From positions 1-6,357 of the forward strand of contig JAGBRZ010000163.1 of the NCBI GenBank assembly GCA_017632155.1: a stretch of DNA of 6,357 bases, written 5' to 3'. Origin of the DNA: Clostridia bacterium. GTDB lineage: Bacteria > Bacillota_A > Clostridia > Oscillospirales > CAG-272. Under the pieces are notes generated by a model. The model had not been told where the DNA came from and searched no databases. It saw nothing but the letters and a program-made list of their open reading frames with translations. Position numbers and translations under genes: made by a program. Below are positions 1,768 through 6,357 of this stretch, in pieces. Positions within the stretch are counted from its first letter, which is position 1; every line of letters starts with the position of its first letter.

Positions 1768-1816
1768 GAGCCGGCTTTTCCATTCCTGTGGAAAAGCCGG
1801 CTCATTTTTATTTTAT
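1768..1816 (+). terminator. Strong intrinsic terminator between the convergent KTR and XRE genes
   Basis: GAGCCGGCTTTTCCA (1768-1782) is an exact 15-bp inverted repeat of 1789-1803, with a 6-base loop (1783-1788), followed by a T-rich tract (1805-1814). It ends KTR transcription. On the minus strand the same hairpin lies 4 bp past the XRE stop but is not followed by T's, so it would work mainly in the + direction. Confidence 0.88.
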
Positions 1817-2158
1817 GAGAGTTGCGTTTGGATTGCGAAGCGCTGCAAGAATGGATTCCAAAATCGGAATGATAGCATTCGCTTCTTCTTCGGTGCATTC
1901 TTCGATCAGAATACGAAGCTGATTGAGAGAAGGAGAATTTCTATGTACTTCGGGATAGAATATTTCCATCGGATCCATTTTCAACGTTCTGATCAACGGA
2001 TATAATACTTCGAGTTTGGGATTTCCCTTGTTGTTCTCAATATTTAATACAGTACGGTTATCAATATTCGCTTTCTCTGCCACCTGTGCTTGGGTTAAAG
2101 TTGTTTTAGAACGGGCCTGCTTTACGGCATCTCCCAAGTATTTTGAATATTCGGACAT
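1808..2158 (-). CDS. XRE-family helix-turn-helix transcriptional regulator
   Basis: A 116-aa protein on the minus strand. Residues about 8-67 form a Cro/CI-type helix-turn-helix domain: TLTQAQVAEKANIDNRTVLN supplies the two DNA-contact helices, and the following NIENNKGNPKLEVLYPLIRT is typical of this family. The C-terminal part (about 75-116; QLRILIEECTEEEANAIIPI) looks like a short helical oligomerisation tail and is common in regulators carried by clostridial elements. ATG 2158 is preferred over the in-frame GTG 2161, because AGGGGGTG (complement of 2166-2173) is 7 nt from the ATG. It likely represses its own gene and the rightward promoter from the 14-bp palindromes at 2177, 2230 and 2356; the closest palindrome is 19 bp upstream of the start. 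Binding to those sites is inferred from position and symmetry. Confidence 0.9.
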   Translation of the reverse strand: MSEYSKYLGDAVKQARSKTTLTQAQVAEKANIDNRTVLNIENNKGNPKLEVLYPLIRTLKMDPMEIFYPEVHRNSPSLNQLRILIEECTEEEANAIIPILESILAALRNPNATLIK

Positions 2159-2176
2159 CACAATTCACCCCCTGTA

Positions 2177-2534: not shown

Positions 2535-3044
2535 ATGAAATATGCACCCAAAAAAGTTTTTCTATTAGAGAACAACGAATACACAGAGATTACATATGAG
2601 GAACTCTGCCACAGAGAAACGACCGACAAATCCTATGAGAACAAGCGCTTTCTCCCTTTGCACGGAATGCTCATGGAGGTCACCGAGGACGTTTACGCTG
2701 ACTTTTATCGTGATAAGCGTCGTCAGCAGTACATAACCGCAAGAGCAATTGCAAACGGCGACGTGTCCTACGATGTGCTGAACACCGACGAGTTCAACGG
2801 CGAGGACACTCTCGTCGATCCCGATGAGAACGTAGCCGAGCAGGTTGCTCAGAAGATGCTGATCGAGAAGCTCCACCGTGTTCTCACTCTGCTGTCGGAG
2901 GACGAGCAGCTCCTCATCCACCGCCACTATTTCGAGGACATTCCCGAAACCGAGCTGGCAGAGATTTACGGGATCACACAGCAAGGAATCAGCAAGCGGA
3001 TCAAGAAGATTCGTGAGAAGCTAAAAAATCTTTTGGAAAATTAA
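2535..3044 (+). CDS. Sigma-70-like RNA polymerase sigma factor of mobile-element type
   Basis: A 169-aa protein. The C-terminal part (about residues 113-165) is a sigma region 4 helix-turn-helix: LLSEDEQLLIHRHYFEDIPE followed by ETELAEIYGITQQGISKRIK, then a basic KIREKLKNLLEN end. The N-terminal part (EYTEITYEELCHRE, then KRFLPLHGMLMEVTEDVYAD) is the pattern I know from short sigma-like proteins of Firmicute conjugative elements of the Tn1549 kind; a canonical -10-binding region 2 is not obvious, so it may act as an accessory sigma or a region-4 regulator. ATG 2535 is set by AGGAGG (2521-2526) with 8-nt spacing, but that site is buried in a strong hairpin. Its own terminator follows. It may drive the element's transfer or recombination genes; its target promoters cannot be read from this window. 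Confidence 0.85.
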   Translation: MKYAPKKVFLLENNEYTEITYEELCHRETTDKSYENKRFLPLHGMLMEVTEDVYADFYRDKRRQQYITARAIANGDVSYDVLNTDEFNGEDTLVDPDENVAEQVAQKMLIEKLHRVLTLLSEDEQLLIHRHYFEDIPETELAEIYGITQQGISKRIKKIREKLKNLLEN

Positions 3045-3061
3045 AAATTTTTAGTTGTAGG

Positions 3062-3110
3062 CCCCCTTACTTTTTGCCATGAAAAGTGAGGGGGTCATTT
3101 CTGTTTTCCC
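3062..3110 (+). terminator. Intrinsic terminator of the sigma-factor gene
   Basis: CCCCCTTACTTTT (3062-3074) pairs with AAAAGTGAGGGGG (3082-3094), 13 bp with one G-U pair and a 7-base loop. A T-rich tract (3095-3107) follows. It separates the sigma mRNA from the non-coding stretch downstream. Confidence 0.8.
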
Positions 3111-3124
3111 CTTTGATCCTTGAA

Positions 3125-3536
3125 AACTGAATATCTGCACACCTTTTACTTTCCCTCTGCTGTTCCGAGAGGAACGAGCCACATGAACAGAACACAGAGA
3201 CTTCGTCTCAGCAAGACACACATTGTCCGTTGCCGAGGTCTTCAGGATTCAGACGGTACGGCGCACACCGTAACGAAGGCCACGACAGGCAGAGGCACTA
3301 ATGATACTTGCGTTCAGTCACAGGTCGAGCGTTGAAGCGATAACAGAGTCGTGAGCCGTCGCAACCGATGAGAGCGCCTGCGTGAGATCCACGCGGAGGT
3401 GGGATTCCTATGAGGTCTAATGCATGACCGGAAGGTGCGTACCCTTTGTTCGGGGATGTTGAGGACAAATACGAACAGAAAAGAAACGATTGATACCAAG
3501 GCGGTCGTCTGCAAATTGCAAACGACCGCCTTTTTT
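3125..3536 (+). ncRNA. Candidate structured RNA (unassigned) between sigma factor and MazF
   Basis: About 410 bases lack a convincing protein gene but are dense in hairpins. GTTCC/GGAAC closes a GAGA tetraloop (3162-3175). GAGAC/GTCTC forms a 3-base-loop hairpin (3197-3209). One long nested element spans 3221-3303: CATT/AATG, TGCC 3231/GGCA 3288, GGTCTTC 3237/GAAGGCC 3275 with one G-U, and ACGGT 3253/ACCGT 3267. GCGA 3337/TCGC 3359, GCGTG 3380/CACGC 3390 and GGTC 3414/GACC 3426 follow. CTGTTC (3160-3165) can pair with GAACAG at either 3185 or 3473, hinting at long-range alternatives. The 3' end is a perfect intrinsic terminator, which fixes the strand as plus. No clear sigma-A promoter is seen, so the 5' end is approximate. 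I do not recognise an Rfam family. It may be a free RNA of the element or a leader controlling mazF by read-through. Confidence 0.6.
3498..3536 (+). terminator. Intrinsic terminator ending the candidate RNA, directly before mazF
   Basis: AAGGCGGTCGT (3498-3508) pairs perfectly with ACGACCGCCTT (3522-3532), with six T's at 3531-3536. The loop itself contains TGCAA/TTGCA. The U-tract ends only 7 bp before the mazF Shine-Dalgarno site, so mazF must be read by terminator read-through or from a promoter inside the RNA region. Confidence 0.88.
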
Positions 3537-3557
3537 ACAGAATGGAGGAAACAGAAT

Positions 3558-3929
3558 ATGAAACATACAAACCAAATCAAAAGAGGCGAAATCTATTACG
3601 CCGATCTAAACCCCGTGATCGGGAGCGAACAGGGCGGCCGCCGTCCCGTGCTTATTTTGCAAAACGATACCGGAAACAAACACAGTCCCACCACCATTGT
3701 GGCGGCAATCACAAGTCGTTGTGGAAAAAGCAATCTTCCCGTCGATGTAACAATCACATCCGACTGTCTTCCGTTGCCTTCTGCTGTGCTTCTCGGTCAG
3801 ATCAGGACGATAGATAAAACCCGTCTTAAAGATTATGTCGGCAAGCTCGATAGAAAGGAAATGGTCGAGGTCGACCAAGGAATCGTCAGCAGCTTCGGAA
3901 TCAAGTATTTGGAGGATCTGCTGAAATGA
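3558..3929 (+). CDS. mazF: MazF/PemK-family endoribonuclease toxin
   Basis: A 123-aa protein of normal family length. It follows the MazF pattern closely: KRGEIYYADLNPVIGSEQGG, then RRPVLILQND, HSPTTIVAAITS, LPLPSAVLLGQIRTIDK and a C-terminal acidic helix. The catalytic residues of B. subtilis MazF (Arg25, Thr48) correspond to Arg29 and Thr52 here, so sequence-specific mRNA cleavage is expected. ATG 3558 has GGAGG (3544-3548) upstream; the frame is open back to 3420, but that part crosses the terminator and is not protein-like. No MazE-type antitoxin gene is found before it, the usual place; the space is filled by the structured RNA. The stop overlaps the next ORF by ATGA, so that 50-aa product is made together with it. 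MazF-like genes without MazE do occur next to serine recombinases in clostridial elements, where their role is unclear. Confidence 0.92.
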   Translation: MKHTNQIKRGEIYYADLNPVIGSEQGGRRPVLILQNDTGNKHSPTTIVAAITSRCGKSNLPVDVTITSDCLPLPSAVLLGQIRTIDKTRLKDYVGKLDRKEMVEVDQGIVSSFGIKYLEDLLK

Positions 3930-4078
3930 AAAACCAAGATACCAATAACACATCCTTTTGCTACAGCGTTAATTTACTCCGAATGCTCCTCGATATGAAG
4001 CTGATCACCAAGGAGGAATACGATAAAATCATAGAAATATCCGCCACTCACTACGGCACAGAAAAAATTTGTGTCTGA
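3926..4078 (+). CDS. Small SHOCT-like protein translated with MazF
   Basis: A 50-aa ORF whose ATG overlaps the mazF stop (ATGA, 3926-3929), with GGAGG at 3911-3915 inside mazF. The segment LLRMLLDMKLITKEEYDKII has the spacing of a SHOCT domain (a leading hydrophobic helix, a short turn with I-T, then EEY/F and a second helix). Similar short SHOCT-like ORFs often precede the serine recombinase in clostridial elements, from my memory of such loci. The function is unknown. The tight coupling to MazF allows an antitoxin or partner role, but SHOCT proteins are not established antitoxins, so this is only a hypothesis. The remaining residues (N-terminal MKNQDTNNTSFCYSV and tail THYGTEKICV) show no motif. 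Confidence 0.75.
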   Translation: MKNQDTNNTSFCYSVNLLRMLLDMKLITKEEYDKIIEISATHYGTEKICV

Positions 4079-4194: not shown

Positions 4195-5751
4195 ATGCAC
4201 ATTACGGACATCACCCCAACCCTGCAGAAAAAGACAGAAAAAATCCGTCTCGCCCCTTATTGCCGAGTATCAAGCGATTCCGCAGATCAGTTGCATTCCT
4301 TTGCCGCGCAGATCAGATACTACAGCGAGTATGCAAAGCGACACCCCGAATACGAGCTTGTAGATATTTATGCGGATGAAGGAATCACAGGCACGGACAT
4401 GAGCCGTCGAGATGATCTCCACAGACTTCTGCGGGATTGTAAGCTCGGCAAGGTCGACCGCATCATCTGCAAGACAGTTGCCCGCTTTACGAGAAACACG
4501 GAAGAACTCCTCACTACGCTCCGAATGCTGAAAGAGATCGGAGTCTCGGTGTACTTCGAGGAACAAGGCATCGACACCGACAAAATGAATATGGAAATGA
4601 TCGTTACATTCCCCGGTATGGCTGCACAGCAAGAAAGTGAAGCTATATCGGGGAATGTTCGTTGGAGCATCCAAAAGCGGATGCAGACGGGCGAATACGC
4701 TGGAACGTATCCTGCATACGGATATCGGATGAAAGACGGAAAGCTCGAGGTCAACGAAGAAGAAGCCGAGGTAGTACGGAGAATATTTACATTATACCTT
4801 AAAGGCTACGGTGTACAAGCTATCGCAACCATTCTCAATGAGGATGGCGTACCGAGAAGAACAAGACAGATCAAGTGGTATAGCAGAACAGTGAGATACA
4901 TCCTTGCCAACGAAAAGTACGTAGGCGACGCGCTTTTACAAAAGAAATACCGTTCTGAAACCCCGCAACACAAGACAAAACGTAACAAAGGCGAAAAGCA
5001 ACAGTATTATGTGGAGAACAGCAACCCGCCCATCGTCAGCCGAGAGGTGTTCGCCGCCGTCACAGAACTACTTAAATCCAAGGGAACATTCGAACGACAG
5101 CGAAAGAGTTTTCCGCTGACAGGCACAATGGTCTGTCCCGAATGCGGAAAGAAATTCCGCCGACAGATCACCGAAGGCAGGACTTATTGGATATGCAATG
5201 GACGGACATCGGGAGATAGTAACTGTCAGAGCCGACGAGTCCGAGAGGACATGGTCTACGATGCATTTATGAGCATGGCAGACAAGCTTGCAGATAACCG
5301 CAAATACCTCCTCGGAACGCTGATCGAACAGATCGAGCTTCTGCAGAACAAGACGAGCAAGAGCCAAGAGCGAATCCGAGAGATCGACAAAGAGCTTGCC
5401 GATCTCGGCGCGAGAAACCTCGTCATCGCAAGACTCCATACAAGCGGAGTGCTAAATACAACCGACTACTCCACACAGACTGCGGAGATCGGCAACAAGA
5501 TCACAGAGCTACGCATAGAACGGCGAAAGAAGCTCTCCGAGGACGAGGATGACGAGATGCTCGACGATCTCCGAAGCCTTGACGAGATTATGAGCGAGTA
5601 CATCCCCACAAGCACATTCAACGAAGACCTCTTCGGTCAGATCGTTGAGAGCATCACGGTGGACGATAGCACACAGATCACCTTCAAGCTCATCGGAGGG
5701 ATCGAGCTGACCGAGCCAATCAACGAGAAAGGACGGTGTAAGACCGCATGA
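4195..5751 (+). CDS. Large serine recombinase (site-specific integrase/excisionase)
   Basis: A 518-aa protein with the full large-serine-recombinase layout. The catalytic resolvase domain spans about residues 16-155: YCRVSSDS gives Arg24 and the nucleophile Ser26, and KTVARFTRNT gives Arg97 and Arg100, the equivalents of resolvase Arg68/Arg71. The linking helix AAQQESEAISGNVRWS follows. The recombinase domain (about 165-290) contains AYGYRMKDGKLEVNEEEAEV and a YLKGYGVQAIATILNEDGV segment. The zinc ribbon uses Cys314, Cys317, Cys334 and Cys344. A charged coiled-coil-like region (about 355-460) and a C-terminal tail come last. Such enzymes insert or excise circular elements at att sites through a Ser-DNA intermediate. 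ATG 4195 is set by AAGGAAGGA (4182-4190) and lies behind an extended -10 promoter. The stop overlaps the next gene by ATGA. No key catalytic residue appears to be missing. No att site was identified here. Confidence 0.93.
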   Translation: MHITDITPTLQKKTEKIRLAPYCRVSSDSADQLHSFAAQIRYYSEYAKRHPEYELVDIYADEGITGTDMSRRDDLHRLLRDCKLGKVDRIICKTVARFTRNTEELLTTLRMLKEIGVSVYFEEQGIDTDKMNMEMIVTFPGMAAQQESEAISGNVRWSIQKRMQTGEYAGTYPAYGYRMKDGKLEVNEEEAEVVRRIFTLYLKGYGVQAIATILNEDGVPRRTRQIKWYSRTVRYILANEKYVGDALLQKKYRSETPQHKTKRNKGEKQQYYVENSNPPIVSREVFAAVTELLKSKGTFERQRKSFPLTGTMVCPECGKKFRRQITEGRTYWICNGRTSGDSNCQSRRVREDMVYDAFMSMADKLADNRKYLLGTLIEQIELLQNKTSKSQERIREIDKELADLGARNLVIARLHTSGVLNTTDYSTQTAEIGNKITELRIERRKKLSEDEDDEMLDDLRSLDEIMSEYIPTSTFNEDLFGQIVESITVDDSTQITFKLIGGIELTEPINEKGRCKTA

Positions 5752-6357
5752 AGAACAGAACCCTCCCATACGGCTACTGCTGCGTGGACGGCATCATCAC
5801 CGCCCACAGCGAAGAATCAGCGATCGTGAGCGATATCTGCACGGCATACCTCGCAGGCAAATCGCTACTGACCATAGCAGAGCTACTCAACGAAAGACAG
5901 ATTGAATATATGCCCGGTGTCCTCGGTTGGAACAAGGCACGGCTCAAGAGAATCCTCGAAGATGAACGCTACCTCGGAAAAGCACCGTATCAGCGGATCA
6001 TATCCCAAGAAGCCTATGAAGCCATCCAAACCGTTAAGAACGCACGGAACACACAGAAAGAAACAGATAGGCAGTCAGACATCTACCAACTGACCGTCCC
6101 CGTGCTGTGTCCTATCTGCCAAAGCAAAATGAAACGCATCTACGCAAGCAAACGTAAATGCAGGACAAGATGGGTGTGCGACAGTCAGGAATGCAGACTC
6201 TCCCTCGACAAAGAGGACGGCGAACTGCTCGATGACATCACCGAACTTGTCAACCGCCTCATCTCTAATCCCCACACCATACGGATGCAGACACCGCAGG
6301 CGGCCGAGCCGAGCATGGAGCTTCGCATCCTCAACAACGAGATTGCACGAATGCTCG
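5748..6357 (+). CDS. Recombinase-family protein lacking the catalytic domain, 3'-truncated by the window
   Basis: The frame opens at ATG 5748, overlapping the upstream stop (ATGA), and is open to the right edge with 203 complete codons visible. It begins directly with RTLPYGYCCVDGIITAHSEE, which aligns with the start of the recombinase domain of its neighbour (its residues about 173-190). Typical features follow: AYLAGKSLLTIAELLNERQI, a WNKARLKRILEDERYLG segment, a zinc ribbon with Cys121/Cys124 (CPIC) and Cys144/Cys149, and the start of a helical region. The resolvase domain with the active-site serine is absent, and no upstream remnant of one exists, because the preceding codons belong to the other gene. 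So it was not cut by a frameshift. Such catalytic-domain-less recombinases are known in tandem recombinase clusters of clostridial elements and may act as DNA-binding partners. It has only a weak ribosome site (AAAGGA at 5728), so translational coupling is likely. Confidence 0.85.
   Translation, partial: MKNRTLPYGYCCVDGIITAHSEESAIVSDICTAYLAGKSLLTIAELLNERQIEYMPGVLGWNKARLKRILEDERYLGKAPYQRIISQEAYEAIQTVKNARNTQKETDRQSDIYQLTVPVLCPICQSKMKRIYASKRKCRTRWVCDSQECRLSLDKEDGELLDDITELVNRLISNPHTIRMQTPQAAEPSMELRILNNEIARML

Follow-up and report, generated by a model that had tools for sequence, protein, structure and literature searches.

Gene and Feature Content of the Locus

The window (the whole stretch of 6,357 nucleotides analyzed here, from contig JAGBRZ010000163.1 of the Clostridia bacterium assembly GCA_017632155.1) carries a structured RNA between a small sigma-factor-type gene and a MazF/PemK-family gene, followed by serine recombinase genes:

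1500-1748: KTR protein gene
1808-2161, minus strand: divergent HTH gene
2535-3044, plus strand: gene for a small sigma-70-region-4 protein in an Orf7-like position, 5' of the RNA (Pfam Sigma70_r4, 28.8 bits)
3558-3929, plus strand: MazF/PemK-family gene, the first gene 3' of the RNA (Pfam PF02452, 112.5 bits)
3926-4078: SHOCT ORF
4195-5751, plus strand: large serine recombinase gene (Pfam Resolvase, Recombinase and Zn_ribbon_recom)

A second serine recombinase gene starts at 5748. The SHOCT_2 ORF (3926-4078, 50 amino acids) overlaps the end of mazF with its start (ATGA) and is followed by the recombinase; ORFs alike recur between the RNA and recombinases in other loci. Upstream of the module, a gene (711-1409) for a response regulator whose output domain is a winged helix is perhaps element cargo. 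The window proteins scanned gave no mazE-type match, the neighbors of mazF being the sigma gene and the SHOCT ORF, and an Orf8-like gene is absent from the window.

The non-coding features between the sigma gene and mazF, all on the plus strand, are as follows:

3060-3096: terminator-like hairpin directly 5' of the boxA-like sequence, with a poor U tract
3114-3133: boxA-like sequence TGATCCTTGAAAACTGAATA, the head of the element
3136-3441: structured RNA domain, closed by the helix 3136-3147/3430-3441
3154-3161 with 3288-3295: long-range helix P0, immediately 5' of the conserved AATGATACTT block
3162-3166/3171-3175: hairpin Pa with a GNRA (GAGA) loop, from the 17-sequence alignment
3254-3261 with 3268-3275: hairpin Pb, with double changes in 6 of 7 pairs
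3298-3413: pemK RNA core (RF02913), comprising the CTAATGATACTT block and helices P1, P2 and P3
3414-3429: hairpin P4, immediately beyond the 3' end of the Rfam model, with double changes in 4 of 5 pairs
3499-3536: intrinsic terminator separating the RNA from mazF (stem 3499-3531, then TTTTT)

Rfam Identity and Relatives of the RNA

The initial annotation regarded this region as an unassigned structured RNA that could not be matched to a known class. That part has to be withdrawn, as a cmscan of the window against Rfam returned a single match above a curated cut-off, RF02913 (pemK RNA), at 3298-3413 of the plus strand, with 55.6 bits vs. a cut-off of 34.8 (E 2.7e-8). While a score above the gathering cut-off is common to the family and the window RNA, the RF02913 model comprises 61 positions only, so that most of the ~410 nt lies outside it, including the boxA-like sequence, the closing helix, P0, Pa, Pb and P4. 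The family name and its class (Cis-reg) imply regulation of pemK, whereas the gene neighborhoods described below speak otherwise. According to the available text of the respective papers, pemK gained three covarying pairs in Rfam 15 (PMC11701678), Rfam and ZWD versions of families differ (PMC7657543), and pemK is listed among RNAs found near defence genes (PMC11061315).

A search with a pattern of the Rfam consensus yielded at least 120 stretches from genome contigs and a further 15 from viral ones, to which the loci of the window, pCF10, KP345886 and OY725736 were added; among the matches listed, the relatives are mostly from Clostridia, and the boxA-like core and the AATGATACTT block occur together in 115 loci (55 non-redundant, window included). 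RF02913 itself was found above cut-off in 21 of 299 genomes of one phylum and in 0 of 14 control genomes. The search with the Rfam model returned 30 loci, of which 27 were used (L171, L174 and L185 were dropped, the motif not being where expected); these 27 are partly dependent, with L160 representing the same place as L058 and the L168 core identical to that of L136, leaving 21 after dereplication.

Conserved Fold and Covariation

The window and 16 relatives (17 sequences in all, each taken from the boxA-like sequence to beyond the core) aligned well, and the alignment yielded, by RNAalifold, 72 pairs in 12 helices, 46 of these pairs with changes on both sides, which well exceeds the at least seven local helices originally proposed. 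Paired cells amounted to 97.0% in this alignment (vs. 84.1% in shuffles and 38–45% when slid), double-change cells to 164 (vs. 49.4 and 7–24, respectively) and the covariation score to 0.419 (vs. 0.187 in shuffles); none of 500 shuffles equaled the observed value on any of the five measures. The three helices of the Rfam model (P1, P2 and P3; helices 7, 10 and 11 of the alignment) are maintained by compensatory changes, and 9 of the 12 pairs of the closing helix show double changes. G-U pairs are conserved (130 of 1146 standard cells, with five pairs mostly G-U) and argue for RNA rather than DNA.

Since this structure was derived from the 17-sequence alignment itself, tests of individual helices on a wider set of loci (excluding the N-rich locus L020) carry more weight. 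Among the matches listed, P0 reaches 7 bp or more in 47 of 54 loci, compared to 23.8% of 2862 cross-locus pairings, and the mean run of the closing helix is 9.6 bp vs. 7.1 bp in cross-locus pairings (54 loci), some of these loci being present in the 17-sequence alignment as well. For both helices, 0 of 5000 permutations matched the observed mean helix length (54 loci including pCF10), with the test windows set after inspection of the alignments and retained in the permutations. Energies from duplexfold are in agreement but noisy.

The longest open frames differ widely among the 17 aligned sequences, and the absence of a credible protein gene from 3125-3536 held up on inspection, as the longest sense ORF has 71 aa (3120-3335) and the longest antisense ORF 88 aa (3314-3580); the mazF frame extends back to 3420. 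Overall, 3114-3441 of the window is a conserved, structured RNA comprising a boxA-like head and a ~310-nt domain. The non-coding, structured character assigned to 3125-3536 is thus borne out by covariation, but the boundaries are not, as the element starts earlier (at 3114) and its domain ends at ~3441.

Some details of the earlier reading fared differently. The GNRA-capped helix is real (3162-3166/3171-3175, loop GAGA). The view that such a density of pairing is unlikely by chance is backed by covariation; the folding energy of the single sequence is modest and too weak to decide: for 3125-3536, terminator included, z is -2.7 with 1 of 100 shuffles as good, and for 3112-3480 z is -1.5 with 8 of 100 as good. 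The nested hairpin proposed at 3221-3303 was not confirmed (z -1.4, with 20 of 200 shuffles folding equally well); its 5' arm is an insert that 7 of the 17 sequences lack, and GGCAGAGG, located in the 3' arm, forms part of the covarying long-range helix with 3154-3161. A switchable fold, based on two possible partners of CTGTTC, was likewise rejected, the partners not being conserved: the window has both, but the conserved fold places GTTCC (3162-3166) in a local pairing with 3171-3175, and already the nearest relative, L080, lacks GAACAG at 3185.

A boxA-Like Sequence at the Head of the Element

The boxA-like sequence is among the best-conserved parts of the element, and its spacing to the 5' strand of each long-range helix is nearly constant. 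Among the matches listed, 112 of 123 loci have its core ([CT].TTGA.AA) upstream, compared to 47 of 384 control windows (55 of 63 vs. 20 of 195 after dereplication); this count leaves aside 2 of 136 loci that lack the block and 11 whose upstream sequence is shorter than 330 nt. For the Rfam-model loci, a slightly wider core gave 24 of 27 vs. 25 of 134 controls, one of the 24 (L176) being an A/T-rich, chance-like match. The core is missing from 11 of the 123 loci (8 of the 63 non-redundant ones) among the matches listed and from 3 of the 27 Rfam-model loci; several of the former 11 have near-matches such as CTTAAAAATCGAATA. A TnpW-type group (29 loci with one spacing, among the matches listed) carries a diverged boxA, TGAACCTTGACAAAGAAAGC.

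The element's boxA-like sequence is of the same type as the rRNA boxA of host genomes. We found rRNA in 6 of the 16 host genomes searched; 12 loci were returned, and all 7 of those examined (with full-length 16S) have ACCTTGAAAA or ACCTTGATAA, located either in the leader of 16S or in the spacer between 16S and 23S, promoter-like TTGACAA matches, also present at rRNA loci, being excluded from this count. One of the seven carries ACCTTGAAAACTGAATA. In the accessible text of published work, boxA of E. coli associates with S10 and NusB (PMC12691694), and boxA and Nus factors are described as conserved in Bacillus subtilis (PMC7819879).

Gene Neighborhoods

To describe the neighborhoods, we combined the 55 non-redundant loci among the matches listed with the 27 loci from the Rfam search (82 in total). 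The first labeled downstream gene is a serine recombinase in 23 loci (a single-linkage cluster that takes in some small ORFs), MazF in 15, a ParA-type gene in 15, an HTH_17 excisionase in 8, a Tn916-type excisionase in 5, SHOCT in 3, TnpW in 2 and a tyrosine integrase in 2, with none labeled in 5 and too short a sequence in 4; these labels come from tblastn to clusters and divergent genes may escape them. A sigma gene lies upstream in 57 of the 82 loci (none in 23, too short in 2). Hence, the placement between a sigma factor and MazF is true of the window, and its sigma half recurs, but MazF is an optional neighbor.

Of the Rfam-model loci, 23 of 27 have a sigma gene upstream and 25 of 27 a gene for recombination downstream (serine recombinase, integrase, excisionase or TnpW), while tblastn labels place MazF in 0 of 27, so that the name pemK looks like a misnomer. 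Lying upstream of pemK/mazF is a property of the window, yet it hardly defines the pemK RNA family.

In several loci (L001, L025, L026, L062 and L070) the same RNA lies 5' of a ParA-type gene, followed by parB where seen; the P1 loop is very short in L001 and L025, and tRNA genes are close by in L001, L025 and L026. On a Staphylococcus aureus plasmid (L138), tet(M), sigma and HTH genes form a Tn916-like module, but erm(C) occupies the expected position of the RNA and the locus gives no RF02913 match.

The order KTR, HTH (minus strand), sigma gene, RNA is identical in the window and in pCF10 (L136), whose Tn916-family element, presumably Tn925, carries genes for tet(M), KTR, HTH, sigma, HTH, excisionase and integrase. 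Within the window, the order sigma, RNA, mazF, SHOCT, serine recombinases places the RNA in a canT-type position, between a sigma operon and recombination genes. In five loci (L029, L045, L046, L058 and L133), genes of 140 and 79 aa lie upstream, like orf7 and orf8 of Tn916; the orf8-type gene is HTH_16.

Relation to canT of Tn916

The available text of PMC11658703 describes canT as a processive antiterminator of 452 nt between orf8 and xis of Tn916, which acts in cis and orientation-specifically on several terminators, with no need for other Tn916 genes. Less than 5% of reporter expression was left when 162 bp (nt 229-390, counted from the orf8 stop) were deleted, and likewise after the S3 mutation (ATA, nt 283 of canT), as reported there (PMC11658703).

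Mapped on the element of pCF10 rather than on a Tn916 record, with orf8 ending at 3167 of L136, the 452 nt of canT correspond to 3168-3619. RF02913 matches at 3450-3550 (55.0 bits), between orf8 and xis and inside canT. The ATA at nt 283-285 occupies 3450-3452, i.e., model positions 1-3 of RF02913; from the orf8 end, the ATA position and the match coordinates, S3 thus falls exactly on the first three positions of the model, and the 162-bp deletion (L136 3396-3557) removes the whole RF02913 match. The boxA-like sequence of pCF10 begins at nt 120, and both long-range helices are present (P0 with 9 bp, closing helix with 12 bp). A TndX-type element (L137) also matches RF02913 (68.9 bits), with P0 interrupted (longest run 5 bp). 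Further data in the accessible part of the same paper show little or no effect of S3 in a 400-bp canT fragment and no activity of a 291-nt fragment containing S3 and the deletion region (PMC11658703); taken together, these two results mean that the pemK core alone does not explain the activity.

Comparing the pCF10 copy of canT with the window RNA, the RF02913 core, boxA-like head, closing helix and P0 are shared, as is the site between a sigma-gene operon and recombination genes. The differences are the lack of an orf8-like gene in the window, where mazF, SHOCT and serine recombinases replace xis-int, and the divergent sequences of the P0-enclosed domain and the P1 insert. The accessible text of PMC11658703 mentions none of pemK, Rfam, boxA or NusB, and in the literature searched, with most subscription papers outside its scope, no paper links pemK RNA to canT or boxA by its title, abstract or accessible passages. 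Identification of pemK RNA with the canT family thus appears to be new; the boxA-like head and the full fold are also new.

Proposed Function and Alternatives

In view of these similarities, the window RNA is most probably a canT-type, cis-acting processive antiterminator within the regulatory module at the right end of a Tn916-like integrative element. The direct basis of this assignment is the RNA, its fold, the core common to canT, the boxA-like sequence and the gene context; processive antitermination in cis is in print for Tn916 only, and we infer that the window copy is active. That the element is a whole Tn916-like ICE is likewise presumed from 6.4 kb of it, and its transfer genes would lie outside the window.

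According to the proposed mechanism, transcription of the sigma-gene operon would produce a nascent RNA that exposes the boxA-like sequence and folds the ~310-nt domain. NusB/S10 would bind boxA, the presumed contribution of boxA to antitermination, and the domain would contact RNA polymerase. The RNA would then stay with the elongating polymerase, which would ignore terminators, the first being 3499-3536, and, after excision, would also bypass terminators beyond the element ends. Consequently, mazF and the recombinases would be expressed only from transcripts begun at the element's own promoter and, after circularization, so would any transfer genes. MazF would be an optional first gene of the module.

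The terminators noted on both sides in the initial annotation are indeed matched by terminator-like hairpins, at 3060-3096 (with its poor U tract) and at 3499-3531 (with TTTTT after the stem). Among the matches listed, a terminator-like hairpin occurs 3' of the RNA in 11 of 50 loci (including L080, a near relative of the window) vs. 0.8 expected, and 19 of 54 loci have one in the 140 nt preceding boxA vs. 0.7 expected, with both expectations taken from plain base shuffles. Terminators 3' of the RNA agree with an antiterminator role. The hairpin directly before boxA would put the antiterminator just after a possible terminator, which is awkward, as transcripts from the sigma promoter must first pass it; it may insulate the RNA against stray transcripts. 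This preceding hairpin is often of the CCCCCTCACTT..AAGTGAGGGGG type.

Among alternative explanations, a possible, if somewhat doubtful, one retains processive antitermination but dispenses with boxA, the folded RNA acting on RNA polymerase directly, as is assumed for put and EAR, and the boxA-like sequence being a relic or serving another purpose. Indeed, these two RNAs need no known protein factors, according to the available text of PMC11658703, and some loci are without a boxA core; this reading has to contend with the high conservation of the boxA-like sequence and the near-constant spacing that separates it from the 5' strands of the two long-range helices.

It is improbable that the RNA is a riboswitch or attenuator of mazF controlling the 3499-3536 terminator upon a signal. 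The order RNA, terminator, mazF in the window, the Rfam class Cis-reg and the 15 of 82 loci with MazF as the first labeled gene would suit such a role, but with MazF in none of the 27 Rfam-model loci, integrases, excisionases or recombinases in 25, and the same core preceding xis in a Tn916-family element, the neighborhoods do not fit, and a MazF regulator was rejected. An RNA antitoxin or trans-acting small RNA partnered with MazF is very hard to credit: mazF, flanked by the sigma gene and the SHOCT ORF, does lack a mazE-type partner among the scanned proteins, and the terminator could end a discrete RNA, but MazF comes first in just those 15 loci and canT acts only in cis, as stated in the available text of PMC11658703. 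Finally, a DNA element (an attachment site or a transfer or replication origin) with a structured look due to inverted repeats, for which the recombinase genes nearby, at the element end, might speak, has next to no likelihood given the conserved G-U pairs, which fit RNA and not DNA, the occurrence of the RNA in loci with ParA-type genes, and the separate marking of oriT and sso from canT in Tn916 (figure legend of PMC11658703).

Returning to the canT-type antiterminator, a broader proposition, which we hold to be evenly poised, is that pemK RNA and canT form one family of boxA-headed, ~310-nt RNAs that would assemble a processive antitermination complex with host NusB/S10 and no phage N-type protein and, in Clostridia and Bacilli, would couple conjugative-element excision, as well as the start of partition operons, to expression of long operons. 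If the boxA reading is right, canT fragments without nt 120-139 are expected to be inactive. An orphan Rfam family would thereby be tied to a function shown by experiment (that of canT), while canT gains a covariation-supported structure, an aspect that its discoverers stated they had left aside, and boxA offers a likely handle for host factors. How RNA-based antitermination works in a large group of conjugative elements becomes a directly testable question, and the name pemK, which sends annotators to a toxin gene, can be corrected.

Comparison with Other Antitermination Systems

Lambda nut and rrn boxA sites share with the window RNA a boxA-like head read into nascent RNA before terminators; unlike lambda nut, no N-type protein or boxB was identified in the window, and a ~310-nt fold follows instead. 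The put RNA (HK022) and EAR RNA (Bacillus eps), compared here by description, are cis-acting RNAs proposed to give a terminator-resistant polymerase, as is the window RNA, but RF02913 is found in none of the 14 control genomes, which include Bacillus subtilis. In conAn (pLS20), an RNA part likewise contributes to the antitermination of a Gram-positive conjugation operon, but, unlike the window RNA, conAn works with the protein ConAn1 as a processivity factor. Homology with the conAn2 RNA was rejected, as RF02913, searched with E values of up to 10, found no match in pLS20 1400-6500, which we take to be the location of conAn; the best boxA-like match in pLS20 1-15000 reaches only 14 of 20.

Two further observations concern related loci. 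Another Rfam family, SQ2397 (229.8 bits), with no listing for the window in cmscan, lies beside the divergent HTH gene of Tn916-type elements (L136 2001-2230 and L137 2001-2230). In L139, a second pemK RNA (5676-5772, minus strand, 53.7 bits) lies in the opposite orientation ~2.6 kb from the first, which suggests adjacent or nested elements.
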